Shown here: positions 42,947 to 47,140 of the stretch, piece by piece
Layout of the letters: the number at the start of each line of letters is the position of its first letter
How positions within the stretch are numbered: the stretch's first letter is position 1
Source: an uncultured Opitutia bacterium
GTDB lineage: Bacteria; Verrucomicrobiota; Verrucomicrobiia; Opitutales; UBA953
Assembly (NCBI GenBank): GCA_945957395.1
Contig: CAMFKE010000007.1
Span: 62,001 to 126,000 of the forward strand
DNA: 64,000 bases
Direction: 5' to 3'
Notes under the pieces: generated by a model
What the model was told of the DNA's origin: nothing
Seen by the model: the letters and a program-made list of their open reading frames with translations, nothing else
Database searches by the model: none
Position numbers and translations under genes: made by a program

Positions 42947-43135
42947 AAGTGCCTTGAGGTAAAGGCCGCACAGACAATCGCCGCGCAACCCACGCGCAAG
43001 CCCAACCCGGTTACGATTCGCCCCCCATTTTCCACCGGTGCCTTCCACCTCGGCGCCGGGACCCCCGCCCCGCCGACCTTCGTCTTTCGCCAGGCATGAG
43101 GCGTGCCGGCGGAAATCGGTGGCCATCGGCGGACA

Positions 43136-45682
43136 ATGACCTCTGTGTCGTATTCCGAACACAGCATCACCGTGGCGCGCTTCGACACCAGTCTGCGAAT
43201 CCCCGACATGTGGCAGCAGGAGGCCCTGCAGGCGCTGCGTGAGGGGAAGGATGTGGTCGTGCAGGCGCCCACCGGCTCGGGCAAGACCTTCATCTTCGAG
43301 ATGCTGATGGAGGCGGGCATGCGCCGTCAGGCCATCTACACGGTGCCCACACGCGCGCTCGCCAACGACAAGCTGCGCGAGTGGCGAGAAAAGGGCTGGG
43401 ATGTCGGCATCGCCACCGGCGACATCGCCGAGAACCTGGAGGCGCCGGTGGTGGTCGCCACCCTGGAGACGCAGCGCGGGCGGTTCCTGTCCGGCAAGCA
43501 GCCGGGGCTGCTCGTGATCGACGAGTTCCAGATGCTGGGCGACCCGCAGCGCGGCGTGAACTACGAGCTGGTGATCGCGCTGGCCGAGCCGTCCACGCGG
43601 CTGCTGCTCATGTCGGGCAGTGTGGCGAATCCGGATACGGTGGCGAACTGGCTGCGCTCGCTCGGTCGCACGGTCGAGCTGGTGCGGCAGGACACGCGAC
43701 CGGTGCCGCTTGACGAGGTGTTTCTGGACAAGCTGCCCGACCGCGTGCCGGCGGGCGTCCACGGAATGACCGTGCGTCGCATCGTGCGCGCGCTGATGGC
43801 CGACCTCGGGCCCATGCTCGTGTTCGCGCCGAGACGCCAGGCCGCCGAAGACCTCGCGCGCGCTCTCGCCTCCGCGCTGCCCCTGCACGACTTTTTGGAA
43901 CTCACGCCGGAGCAGAAGGCTCTCGCCGGCGAACAGCTCGGAAGAATGCTGCGCAGCCGCATCGCGTTCCACCACAGCGGGCTCAGCTACGAGCAGCGTG
44001 CGGGCCTGGTGGAGCCGCTTGCCAAGGCCGGACAGCTGCGCGTGGTCGTGGCCACCACCGGCCTGGCCGCCGGCATCAACTTCTCCATGCGCTCGGTGTT
44101 CGTGACCGACCGCCACTACCGCAGCGGCGTCGAGGAGCGCGAGGTGCGGCCGGACGAGCTGCTTCAGATGTTCGGGCGCGCCGGTCGCCGCGGCCTCGAC
44201 GAGCGCGGCTACATCCTGTTCGCCCCCAACTCGCCACGCCTCGTGGAGGCCAAGCCGCTGTCGCTCAAGCGCGCCGAGCGCATCGACTGGGCAGGATTCC
44301 TCGCCGTCATGCGCACGGCCGACGACGCCGGACAGTCGCCCGTGCGCGTGGCCGGCGAACTCGCCGCGCGCCTCTTCGCGCGCGAGCCGGTGCGACTCGG
44401 GCTCGAAAACCTCGCCGAATACGCGGTGCGCGCGCCGCAGGAGGCGCCTCGCAAGACGACGCTCGTGCGGCGCATGTCCAACCGTCACGGCGGCCGCGAG
44501 CGCCTCAAACCGGAGACGAAGGCGTCGCTGCGCGAGGCGTGGCTGCGCCTGGACGACACCTGGCACCCCGCGCTCACTCGCCCCGAGACGCTCGCGACCG
44601 TCCCGGTCGGCTCCGTCTGCAAACTTCCGGACACGAGCCCGCAACGCTACGGCCGCCTCGTGGCGCTCGCGCAGTTCCCGAAGGAAGCGGGCAACGACGA
44701 CCTGGAACTCGCGCCGTGGCTGCTGAAGGGATTGCGGAACGCGGATTGCGGATTGCGGAATGAGAAAGCCCAAGAGGCCGGCGACTCCCGCGGGCGACGT
44801 CGCAACCAATCCGAAATCCGCAATCCGCGTTCCGCAATTCGCCGCGCGTTCCCCTTGGAGTGGTTTGAGAAGACGCTGCCCGCCCGGCTGCCCGCGCTGA
44901 CCGGCGGCGGCAAGCTGCACGGCGCCCTCTTCACGCAGCGCGGCGCGCTCATGGCGCGACTGGACTACTCGGACGCGCTGGTGCGCGTGCGCCGCGACGA
45001 CGGCGGCCACGCGCTCATCAACCCGATCATCGCCGAGGAGGAGCTGGAGGACATCGACATCCACGCGACCGTATCGGGCGCGCAGAGCGGTTCCGGACTG
45101 CCGGCCGACATCTGGCTGCGCCTGGGGCTCATCGACGCGGACGCGCGCCCCACGCGGCGCGGCGTCATCGCCGGATTTTTCCAACAAAGCGAGGGCCTCG
45201 CCATCGCCGCCGCGCTCGAGGACGACAGCTACGCGATACCGGAGCTCGTGCGCGACCTGGCCAATCTGCGCGCGGGCCACCGTTTTCAGGGCGTGGCGAA
45301 CGCGGGCAACCGGCTGGGCGCGGTGTGCCGCATGACCTACCGCGCGATGACCTGCCCCGGCTACCTCGCCGAAGGCGTGCCGCCCGACTACGGCGACGGA
45401 GCGAGCGAACTTCTGGCCAAGCTGGAAACCAACCCGGCGGCCATCGAACAGCTCACGGACGAACTCCTGCGCCGCGGCGACATCGAGCGGGCGGCGGTGG
45501 AGTGGCGCAGCCTGCTCAACCACCTCGTGCACGCCCCGGACTTCGACTGGCCCCGCTGGATGCAGCTCAAGGGCGCCGCGCGCGAATTTCTGGCAAAACA
45601 CCGGGCGCGCCCCGTGTTCTCCGACCTGCCCACGCTGCCCGGCTCACAGCGCGGACGGCACGAGAAGCGCACCAGGTTCTGA
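43136..45682 (+). CDS. Ski2-like superfamily 2 helicase, with an in-frame repeat insertion
   Basis: ATP-dependent nucleic-acid helicase of 848 residues. Motif I is APTGSGKT (near residue 46), motif II DEFQ, motif III LLMSGSVAN, motif V TTGLAAGINF and motif VI QMFGRAGRRGLDERG, placing it near the Ski2/Mtr4 group. The DEFQ form of Walker B is unusual. About 36 residues at 532-568 (RNADCGLRN through EIRNPRSAIR) are encoded by a palindromic repeat and look foreign to the protein. The frame continues beyond it to a helical C-terminal region. The ATG at 43136 was chosen as the best fit. A stand-alone gene with the DUF350 operon divergent upstream. Confidence 0.87.
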   Translation: MTSVSYSEHSITVARFDTSLRIPDMWQQEALQALREGKDVVVQAPTGSGKTFIFEMLMEAGMRRQAIYTVPTRALANDKLREWREKGWDVGIATGDIAENLEAPVVVATLETQRGRFLSGKQPGLLVIDEFQMLGDPQRGVNYELVIALAEPSTRLLLMSGSVANPDTVANWLRSLGRTVELVRQDTRPVPLDEVFLDKLPDRVPAGVHGMTVRRIVRALMADLGPMLVFAPRRQAAEDLARALASALPLHDFLELTPEQKALAGEQLGRMLRSRIAFHHSGLSYEQRAGLVEPLAKAGQLRVVVATTGLAAGINFSMRSVFVTDRHYRSGVEEREVRPDELLQMFGRAGRRGLDERGYILFAPNSPRLVEAKPLSLKRAERIDWAGFLAVMRTADDAGQSPVRVAGELAARLFAREPVRLGLENLAEYAVRAPQEAPRKTTLVRRMSNRHGGRERLKPETKASLREAWLRLDDTWHPALTRPETLATVPVGSVCKLPDTSPQRYGRLVALAQFPKEAGNDDLELAPWLLKGLRNADCGLRNEKAQEAGDSRGRRRNQSEIRNPRSAIRRAFPLEWFEKTLPARLPALTGGGKLHGALFTQRGALMARLDYSDALVRVRRDDGGHALINPIIAEEELEDIDIHATVSGAQSGSGLPADIWLRLGLIDADARPTRRGVIAGFFQQSEGLAIAAALEDDSYAIPELVRDLANLRAGHRFQGVANAGNRLGAVCRMTYRAMTCPGYLAEGVPPDYGDGASELLAKLETNPAAIEQLTDELLRRGDIERAAVEWRSLLNHLVHAPDFDWPRWMQLKGAAREFLAKHRARPVFSDLPTLPGSQRGRHEKRTRF
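44731..44838. repeat. Palindromic word-repeat inserted in frame in the helicase gene
   Basis: A perfect 24-base inverted repeat (arms 44731-44754 and 44815-44838) built from GCGGATTGCGGATT words, separated by 60 bases. The arms continue imperfectly inward. From arm end to arm end the element is 108 bases, a multiple of three, and is read through in the helicase frame. Confidence 0.92.
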
Positions 45683-45693
45683 AGCGAACTGCG

Positions 45694-45791
45694 GATTGCA
45701 GAGTGCAAATTGCAAAAGTGAGTCCTTCGCACGCGCCCAATCGGAATCGCGAAAGCAACGGAAGCCATTTTGCCTTTTGCACTATGCAATC
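45694..45791. repeat. Word-based inverted repeat after the helicase gene
   Basis: Arms 45694-45720 and 45765-45791 are 27 bases long with 4 mismatches, made of GATTGCA, AGTGCAAA and GCAAAA words. The right arm contains the last codons and the stop of rarA. Confidence 0.9.
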
Positions 45792-47140
45792 TGACTTGGC
45801 CCGCCCCGCGCGGCCTTGGAGCGGAGGGCCTTCCAGCGCTCGAGGCGCTCGGCGATGGCGGACTCGGAGCCGTTGGGCTTGGGCGAATACAATTTCACGG
45901 GCGGCTCGACATAGGACTGGCCGGAGACGCCCTCGGGAAATTCGTGGCTGTACAGGTAGCCCGCCCCCTGCCCTTGCGCGCGGTTGAACTTGGTGTGCGC
46001 GTCCTTGAGGTGCGCCGGCACGCGGCGGCGGGGCTCCTCGCGCACCACGCGGCGCGCCTCGAAGATGGCCTCGGTGGCGCTGTTACTCTTCGGGCAGGTC
46101 GCCAGAAAGAGCACGGCGTGAGCGAGGTTGAGCTGGCACTCGGGCAGCCCCACGAAGTCCACCGCCTGCTGTGTCGCCACGGCCACGGTGAGCGCGCGCG
46201 AGTCGGCCAGGCCGACATCCTCGGAGGCGAAGATGACCAGGCGGCGCGCGATGAAGCGCGGATCCTCGCCGCCCTCAAGCATCACGGCCAGCCAGTAGAG
46301 CGCGGCGTCGGGGTCGCCCCCGCGCATGGATTTGATGAAGGCCGAGGCGGTGTCGTAGTGCTCGTCCTCGTTGCGGTCGTAACGGATGCGGCGCTCGCGC
46401 GCGAACACCTCGACATCGGCGAGCGTGAGCGGCGTCTTGAGCGGGTGGCTGAGCACCATCGTCTCCAACGCATTGAGCGCGCGGCGCATGTCGCCCTCGG
46501 CGATGCGCGCGACGGCGGCCAGCACGGCGTCGTCGGCCGTCACGCCGGAGGCGCCCAGTCCTCGCTCCACCTCGGCGAGCGCGCGACGGAGCGCGAGCGT
46601 GACGACGGATTCGTCGGCGGGTTCGAGGCGGAAGAGGTGGCTGCGGCTGAGCAGCGGGGGGATGATGTAGAAGCCGGGGTTGTGCGTGGTGCAGCCGATG
46701 AGGCGCACAGCGCCGGCCTCGACATCCGGCAGCAGCAGATCCTGTTGCGCCTTGTTGAAGCGGTGAATCTCGTCGATGAGCAGCACCGTGCGCCGCTCGG
46801 GGAACGCGCGCGCCTCGCGCAGGATGTCGCGCATCTCGGCGGTGTTCGACAGCACGGCGTTCACGCGCACGCACCGGCAACGCGTCTCGGCCGCGATGAC
46901 CTCGGCGAGCGTGGTCTTGCCGCACCCGGGCGGGCCGTAGAACAGGAGGCTGCCGAAATTGTCCGTGGCGATGAGTCGCGGCAGCAGCGCGCCCTGCCCG
47001 AGCAGCACCTCGTGCCCGAGCACCTCGGACAGTCGGCGGGGGCGCATGCGGGCGGCCAGAGGCGGGCGGAACCCGTGCGCGCCCGAGCCGGACTCCCGGT
47101 CGGGGGAGTCTTCGTCGAAGAGCGAGGGTTCGGAGGGCAT
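45782..47140 (-). CDS. rarA: Replication-associated recombination protein A (AAA ATPase)
   Basis: AAA+ ATPase of 452 residues of the RarA/MgsA/WRNIP1 family, acting at stalled replication forks. Walker A is YGPPGCGKTT, Walker B LLIDEIHRFNKAQQD, with IGCTTHNPGFYIIPPLLSRSHLF (sensor region) and EGDMRRALNALE. The family's C-terminal tetramerisation region has MRGGDPDAALYWLAVMLEGGEDPRFIARRL. The N-terminus QPLA-type element is RPPLAARMRPRRLSEVLGH. Its last three codons and stop come from a palindromic repeat. Confidence 0.95.
   Translation of the reverse strand: MPSEPSLFDEDSPDRESGSGAHGFRPPLAARMRPRRLSEVLGHEVLLGQGALLPRLIATDNFGSLLFYGPPGCGKTTLAEVIAAETRCRCVRVNAVLSNTAEMRDILREARAFPERRTVLLIDEIHRFNKAQQDLLLPDVEAGAVRLIGCTTHNPGFYIIPPLLSRSHLFRLEPADESVVTLALRRALAEVERGLGASGVTADDAVLAAVARIAEGDMRRALNALETMVLSHPLKTPLTLADVEVFARERRIRYDRNEDEHYDTASAFIKSMRGGDPDAALYWLAVMLEGGEDPRFIARRLVIFASEDVGLADSRALTVAVATQQAVDFVGLPECQLNLAHAVLFLATCPKSNSATEAIFEARRVVREEPRRRVPAHLKDAHTKFNRAQGQGAGYLYSHEFPEGVSGQSYVEPPVKLYSPKPNGSESAIAERLERWKALRSKAARGGPSQIA

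Follow-up and report, generated by a model that had tools for sequence, protein, structure and literature searches.

A heptamer-built palindrome in a helicase gene of an uncultured Opitutia bacterium: a probable ORF-less member of an IVS-like class of small inserted palindromes

Introduction

In the genome of an uncultured Opitutia bacterium, a gene for a Ski2/Hel308-like helicase carries a long palindrome in frame within its coding sequence. The window analysed here, a stretch of 64,000 nt, contains the entire gene, and the locus raises the question of which kind of element can enter a protein gene in this form and by which route. A first-pass annotation of the window had regarded the palindrome as a mobile insertion and had named a REP-associated tyrosine transposase as its possible partner.

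Inserts with an S23 ORF are found in the 23S rRNA of Leptospira and Coxiella, whereas the Salmonella-type IVSs have no ORF. The IVS of Coxiella contains two to three tandem GACAGAT heptamers at the S23 ORF, within complementary inverted ends, and rRNA IVSs are excised from the transcript by RNase III (PMC4990558). Heptamers are also known from other settings. The P6b stem of the Nostoc tRNA-Leu intron is heptamer-built, and cyanobacteria possess the STRR heptamers (PMC4476775). Heptameric repeats form dispersed arrays in Xanthomonas and Nostoc, with 70-75 convergent inverted pairs per Xanthomonas genome (PMC4692102), and the TAACTGA repeats likewise are dispersed heptamer arrays (PMC4679880); both were reported without a tie to known mobile elements or to S23. 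The papers on heptamer repeats (PMC4692102, PMC4679880, PMC4476775) and the paper on IVSs (PMC4990558) keep the two subjects apart, and a search of open-access PMC text yielded no paper joining heptamer repeats with dispersed S23 genes or IVSs.

Results and Discussion

Anatomy of the helicase insert and of a second palindrome

The helicase gene spans positions 43103..45682 of the window on the plus strand and was assigned by its ORF, by PF00270 and PF00271 and by Hel308/Ski2 structures. Its helicase core comprises aa 38-384, and the insert, at about aa 543-580, is located outside this core in the C-terminal half of the protein. It is an ORF-less palindrome with approximate limits of 44729..44842 and the top-scoring inverted repeat of the window. 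The perfect 24-base inverted repeat with a 60-base spacer described by the first-pass annotation was recovered, with arms at 44731-44754 and 44815-44838 that are fully complementary over 24 nt at 60 nt spacing and can be extended to 32 nt at 94% (44731-44762 and 44807-44838, with 44 nt between them). The accompanying statement that the repeat takes up exactly 36 codons holds for its length, 108 nt being 36 codons in the open frame, and fails for its position, the repeat starting off the codon boundary.

Two features had been missed in that first reading, namely a second palindrome and the build of the arms from tandem 7-bp units. By inverted-repeat and period-7 analysis, the left arm (44731..44762, plus strand) consists of the units GCGGAAC GCGGATT GCGGATT GCGGAAT and the right arm (44807..44838, plus strand) of the inverted units AATCCGA AATCCGC AATCCGC GTTCCGC. 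The period-7 analysis of the window placed one run in each arm (44728-44769 and 44806-44838), and the variant unit GCGGAAC stands at the matching position in both. As RNA, the insert reaches -70.2 kcal/mol compared with -40.7 +/- 4.1 kcal/mol for shuffled sequences (z -7.2), its ends being inverted repeats that are predicted to fold as one long stem. The interior (44763..44806; 44 nt) is without an S23 ORF, resembles the interior of no other copy and may be native linker sequence.

The second ORF-less palindrome (45684..45796; arms 45694-45717 and 45768-45791) follows directly after the helicase stop codon and is the second-best inverted repeat of the window. Its units (GCAGAGT, GCAAATT and GCAAAAG) are related to those of the helicase insert, and it is a weaker palindrome of the same build with a hairpin of -44.1 kcal/mol (z -3.9). 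Its right arm overlaps the last codons and the stop codon of a convergent gene (45782-47140, minus strand), which by eye we take to encode a RarA/MgsA-like AAA ATPase.

Insertion in this lineage

The segment is missing in all 22 aligned helicase orthologues, which come from the same family and order. At the corresponding site, the orthologues have a linker that is variable in length and composition and lies outside the helicase core; the closest of them (61% identity) carries an unrelated linker rich in lysine, arginine and proline, without 7-bp units. Since the segment is absent from the 22 orthologues, either the whole insert or its two arms must have been inserted in this lineage, which bears out the insertion proposed at first. 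An orthologue with the same loop, named at the outset as the sign of an ancient part of the protein, does not occur among them. The variability of the linker would also suit an old native loop that became repetitive by drift, a reading which is scarcely credible in view of the palindrome at the nucleotide level, the same arms elsewhere in the genome and the absence from 22 of 22 orthologues. No target duplication was seen for this copy; a close empty site, at which one could be sought, is lacking among the 22 orthologues.

Copies of the arms across the genome

The arm was searched for in the 2.79-Mb genome, a check that the first-pass annotation had called for, with the pattern GCGGATTGCGGATT, which represents two tandem 7-bp units of the GCGGATT type. 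Allowing up to one mismatch, it recurs with 45 matches that were grouped into 21 places, while the reversed GCGGATTGCGGATT used as control pattern gave no match in the same genome. At nine of the 21 places, a GCGGATT arm is followed by an AATCCGC arm, and each of these inverted pairs scores higher than any of 100 shuffles. In eight of these, the interiors have 4-163 nt and are by eye mutually unrelated; the ninth has an interior of 399 nt. A shared interior, as MITEs have, was considered and rejected, because the interiors of the copies differ.

Partnerless single arrays are present as well, for example at C6:110119, some copies show mixed unit types between their two arms, and in one pair (C2:324737-324926) the interior is host DNA that includes the start codon of the next host gene. 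The unrelated ORF-less interiors and this enclosed gene start indicate that the arms may have been laid down separately. They belong, together with the single arrays and the mixed units, to the evidence for an alternative in which heptad arrays arise or insert singly, a palindrome results wherever one array comes to oppose another and the presence of S23 genes at such places is incidental; slippage, template switching between inverted copies or an end-extending activity would be candidate routes. We consider this alternative rather unlikely. It is at odds with the GCGGAAC variant, which both helicase arms carry at corresponding positions, and with the comparisons of arms and of whole blocks given below.

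The dispersal of small palindromes in the genome is also a property of REPINs and of the Rickettsia RPEs, and the latter are found in frame inside genes, too. A REP/REPIN-type element moved by a RAYT, i.e. a Y1 HUH transposase, could further draw on the presence of Y1 transposases in 213 of 289 genomes of the phylum. Despite the 45 repeat matches, PF01797 has no match in this 96%-complete genome, the tandem 7-bp build is to our knowledge not that of REPs, and the arms are associated with S23. The S23/IVS gene is a better partner than the transposase suggested at first. Involvement of the transposase is very improbable and, barring loss of its gene or a location in the missing ~4%, counts as refuted for this genome. 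The likeness to RPEs, drawn by the first-pass annotation, holds in principle only. The reverse transcriptase family RVT_1 (PF00078) equally gave no match in this genome, and with neither a Y1 transposase nor an RVT_1 match, movement by a RAYT or as an ordinary retroelement, such as a DGR or a group II intron, is unlikely in this case.

S23 genes between heptad arrays

The 399-nt interior encodes an S23 or 23S rRNA-IVP four-helix-bundle protein (PF05635, TIGR02436). The copy bracketing an S23 gene at C2:322423-322836 (S23 ORF C2:322478-322768) has units of the GCGGATT type as in the helicase insert. The S23 ORF present in this sister copy (C2:322478-322768) is absent from the helicase copy, whose 44-nt interior could by its length hold at most a scrap of it; this is a point against assigning the insert to an S23-linked class.

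PF05635 is represented by ten genes in the genome, most of which by eye lie between inverted heptad arrays with gene-specific units, including GTTGATA, GGCACAA, CTATAGG, GCGAGAT and others. Measured against a strict control of mismatched pairs, six of the ten loci score above the 95th percentile. In the phylum, S23 occurs in 221 of 289 genomes, compared with none of 14 control genomes. One genome (G080), whose own S23 element uses GTGAATC units, has 22 matches to these units, as against at most six in 29 other genomes; their occurrence at further places fits ORF-less copies that derive from, or were moved by, S23-bearing ones. Two genomes (G133 and G329) count against this, since they harbor many AGTGGYT arrays, yet the S23 elements sampled from them are built of different units. 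A comparison of single unit patterns with the presence of S23 across genomes was discarded as uninformative, because the matches were mostly single chance or coding matches.

The flanks of S23 genes were surveyed more widely at 73 loci from named genomes of many phyla and at 29 loci from viral contigs, with far flanks as control. The upstream flank forms an inverted repeat with the downstream one at 81% of the 73 genome loci and 86% of the 29 viral loci, the criterion being a score above the 95th percentile of far flanks, which sets their own rate at 5% by construction. Period 7 (at least 20/28) was detected in the flanks of 43 of 73 loci compared with 3 of 73 far flanks, and in 23 of 29 viral loci compared with 2 of 29. 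The dominant lags are 7 and 14, with a weaker one at 8. Inverted arrays of 7-bp units around S23 genes thus extend over many bacterial phyla and viral contigs, each element having its own ‘dialect’. The two arms of an element are far more alike than arms of different elements, which argues against an independent origin of single arrays. The similarity of arms, on the proper strand, rises with the identity of the S23 proteins, as joint inheritance of arms and gene would predict. In 86 of 97 S23 elements, G outnumbers C in the 5′ arm. Among 162 pooled elements, both arms have period 7 in 71, and the units follow a weak grammar, G K N N N T A, with 3.38 bits compared with 2.66 bits for permuted units.

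Several loci deviate from the simple form. Period 8 replaces or accompanies period 7 in 11 of the 73 flanks, and at two loci (L135 and L137) the arms consist of longer repeated hairpin units, such as CGGCTACGCCGCTGGTTTGA in L135, in place of simple heptads. None of 50,697 GenBank phage records matched S23; in viral contigs of IMG/VR, S23 was found at 39 loci (L238-L276), and some of these ‘viral’ contigs may be host DNA.

Arms and S23 gene as one block

A block of ~416 bp from arm to arm, 78-82% identical, occurs in operons on plasmids of the cyanobacteria Trichormus, Nostoc (two) and Aulosira. In Trichormus, one Nostoc and Aulosira, it lies closely downstream of a stop codon, and its neighbours there show no protein similarity between the plasmids. 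The two Nostoc plasmids have common sequence beyond the element; an indel comparison of the two was abandoned, as by annotation they share too little sequence. An empty site is provided by Picosynechococcus: in PCC 7003 an S23 element lies between cas10 and cmr3, while the site in PCC 7002 is empty (12 bp), the two strains being ~91% identical around it and differing in length by 416 bp. The appearance of arms and S23 gene as one unit, both in unrelated neighbourhoods and at this empty site, is difficult to reconcile with arrays that insert singly. An S23 element inside the 23S rRNA gene of an Azospirillum plasmid, with arms of the GGACGGA/GGACAGA type, is a classical IVS with arms of 7-bp units.

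S23 elements of cyanobacterial plasmids (L145, L148, L154 and L155) were seen within gene clusters, twice at cas6/cas4, at cas10/cmr3 and between the two ribonucleotide reductase genes. When the cas6-cas4 gap is compared between Dolichospermum UHCC 0315A (L157) and Anabaena sp. 90 (L148), one plasmid has an S23 element there, and the palindromic insert of the other, GTAGGTTGGGTT...AACCCAACCTAC, is unrelated to it. This gap is possibly a shared insertion hot spot; the pair was rejected as a clean empty site on account of the second insert.

An IVS-like class of inserted palindromes

On balance, the helicase insert probably belongs, as an ORF-less representative, to an IVS-like class of small inserted palindromes. 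A full element of this class would have ~400-500 bp, with tandem 7-bp units forming a G-rich 5′ arm, an ORF for S23/23S rRNA-IVP in the middle and the same units inverted in the 3′ arm, and the ORF-less form would retain the arms and a short interior only. Such elements would insert in one piece where an extra hairpin is tolerated, such as intergenic positions just after a stop codon, loops of rRNA and in-frame linkers of proteins; once transcribed, both arms would form one long hairpin. In protein genes, only in-frame and stop-free inserts at tolerant linkers would survive. S23, whose solved relatives (2gsc and 2rld) contain five chains per crystal entry, might bind the repeated 7-bp units and, by recognising them, promote insertion or retention of the palindrome. 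ORF-less copies would then be deletion derivatives or be moved in trans by S23-bearing ones. S23 may instead be a passenger, and if the arrays were laid down separately, the element view would be valid for the S23 copies only.

With the 23S rRNA IVSs, these sequences share the stem-loop insert, the complementary ends and, in full copies, the S23 ORF, and the Azospirillum IVS, like the helicase insert, has heptad arms. In contrast to them, the helicase copy lacks an ORF and, located in a protein gene, has to be translated, and most S23 copies examined closely here lie outside rRNA. An IVS-like palindrome that is ORF-less and resides in a protein gene is what we regard as novel. The cyanobacterial STRRs resemble both arms of the helicase insert in their tandem 7-bp units, as do the S23 elements of cyanobacterial plasmids; in P6b, degenerate 7-bp units pair into an ORF-less stem and one unit type is replaced by another. 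These repeats were described in cyanobacteria, as repeats or intron stems, and unconnected with S23 or a mobile unit. The DGR accessory protein Avd/bAvd is a distant relative of S23, as judged from weak matches to bAvd and Avd, whereas an RVT_1 reverse transcriptase match is lacking in the genome studied here.

The occurrence of this build around S23 genes of many bacteria and inside some 23S rRNA genes suggests a class of tiny inserted elements that is very widespread and has been overlooked so far. More tentatively, S23/IVP genes could encode the proteins of pan-bacterial minimal mobile palindromes that have neither a transposase nor a reverse transcriptase, in which the 7-bp units serve as multivalent binding sites for an S23 oligomer and of which rRNA IVSs, cyanobacterial heptamers and in-frame inserts would be different forms. 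Such a class would unite 23S rRNA IVSs, the ‘four helix bundle’ genes widely annotated without a function, the heptamers of cyanobacteria and xanthomonads and the RNADCG...NPQSAIRNPQ peptide inserts in unrelated proteins, and would give a concrete and testable anatomy to an inserted element without a recognisable transposase.

In-frame copies in other proteins

Several copies of the repeat lie in frame in other large proteins, which by their sequence are presumably Mfd (two), UvrA-type ATPases, MoaE and an ABC transporter. Caution is advisable with such inserts, as they put spurious segments into conserved proteins. The copies just listed include the in-frame heptad inserts of the two Mfd-like and several UvrA-type genes (L031, C6:108500-110700; L032, C6:176500-180600; L037, C12:16500-18500). 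With the helicase counted, many intragenic copies are located in DNA-repair genes, a bias that may be due to chance, since these encode large multidomain proteins.
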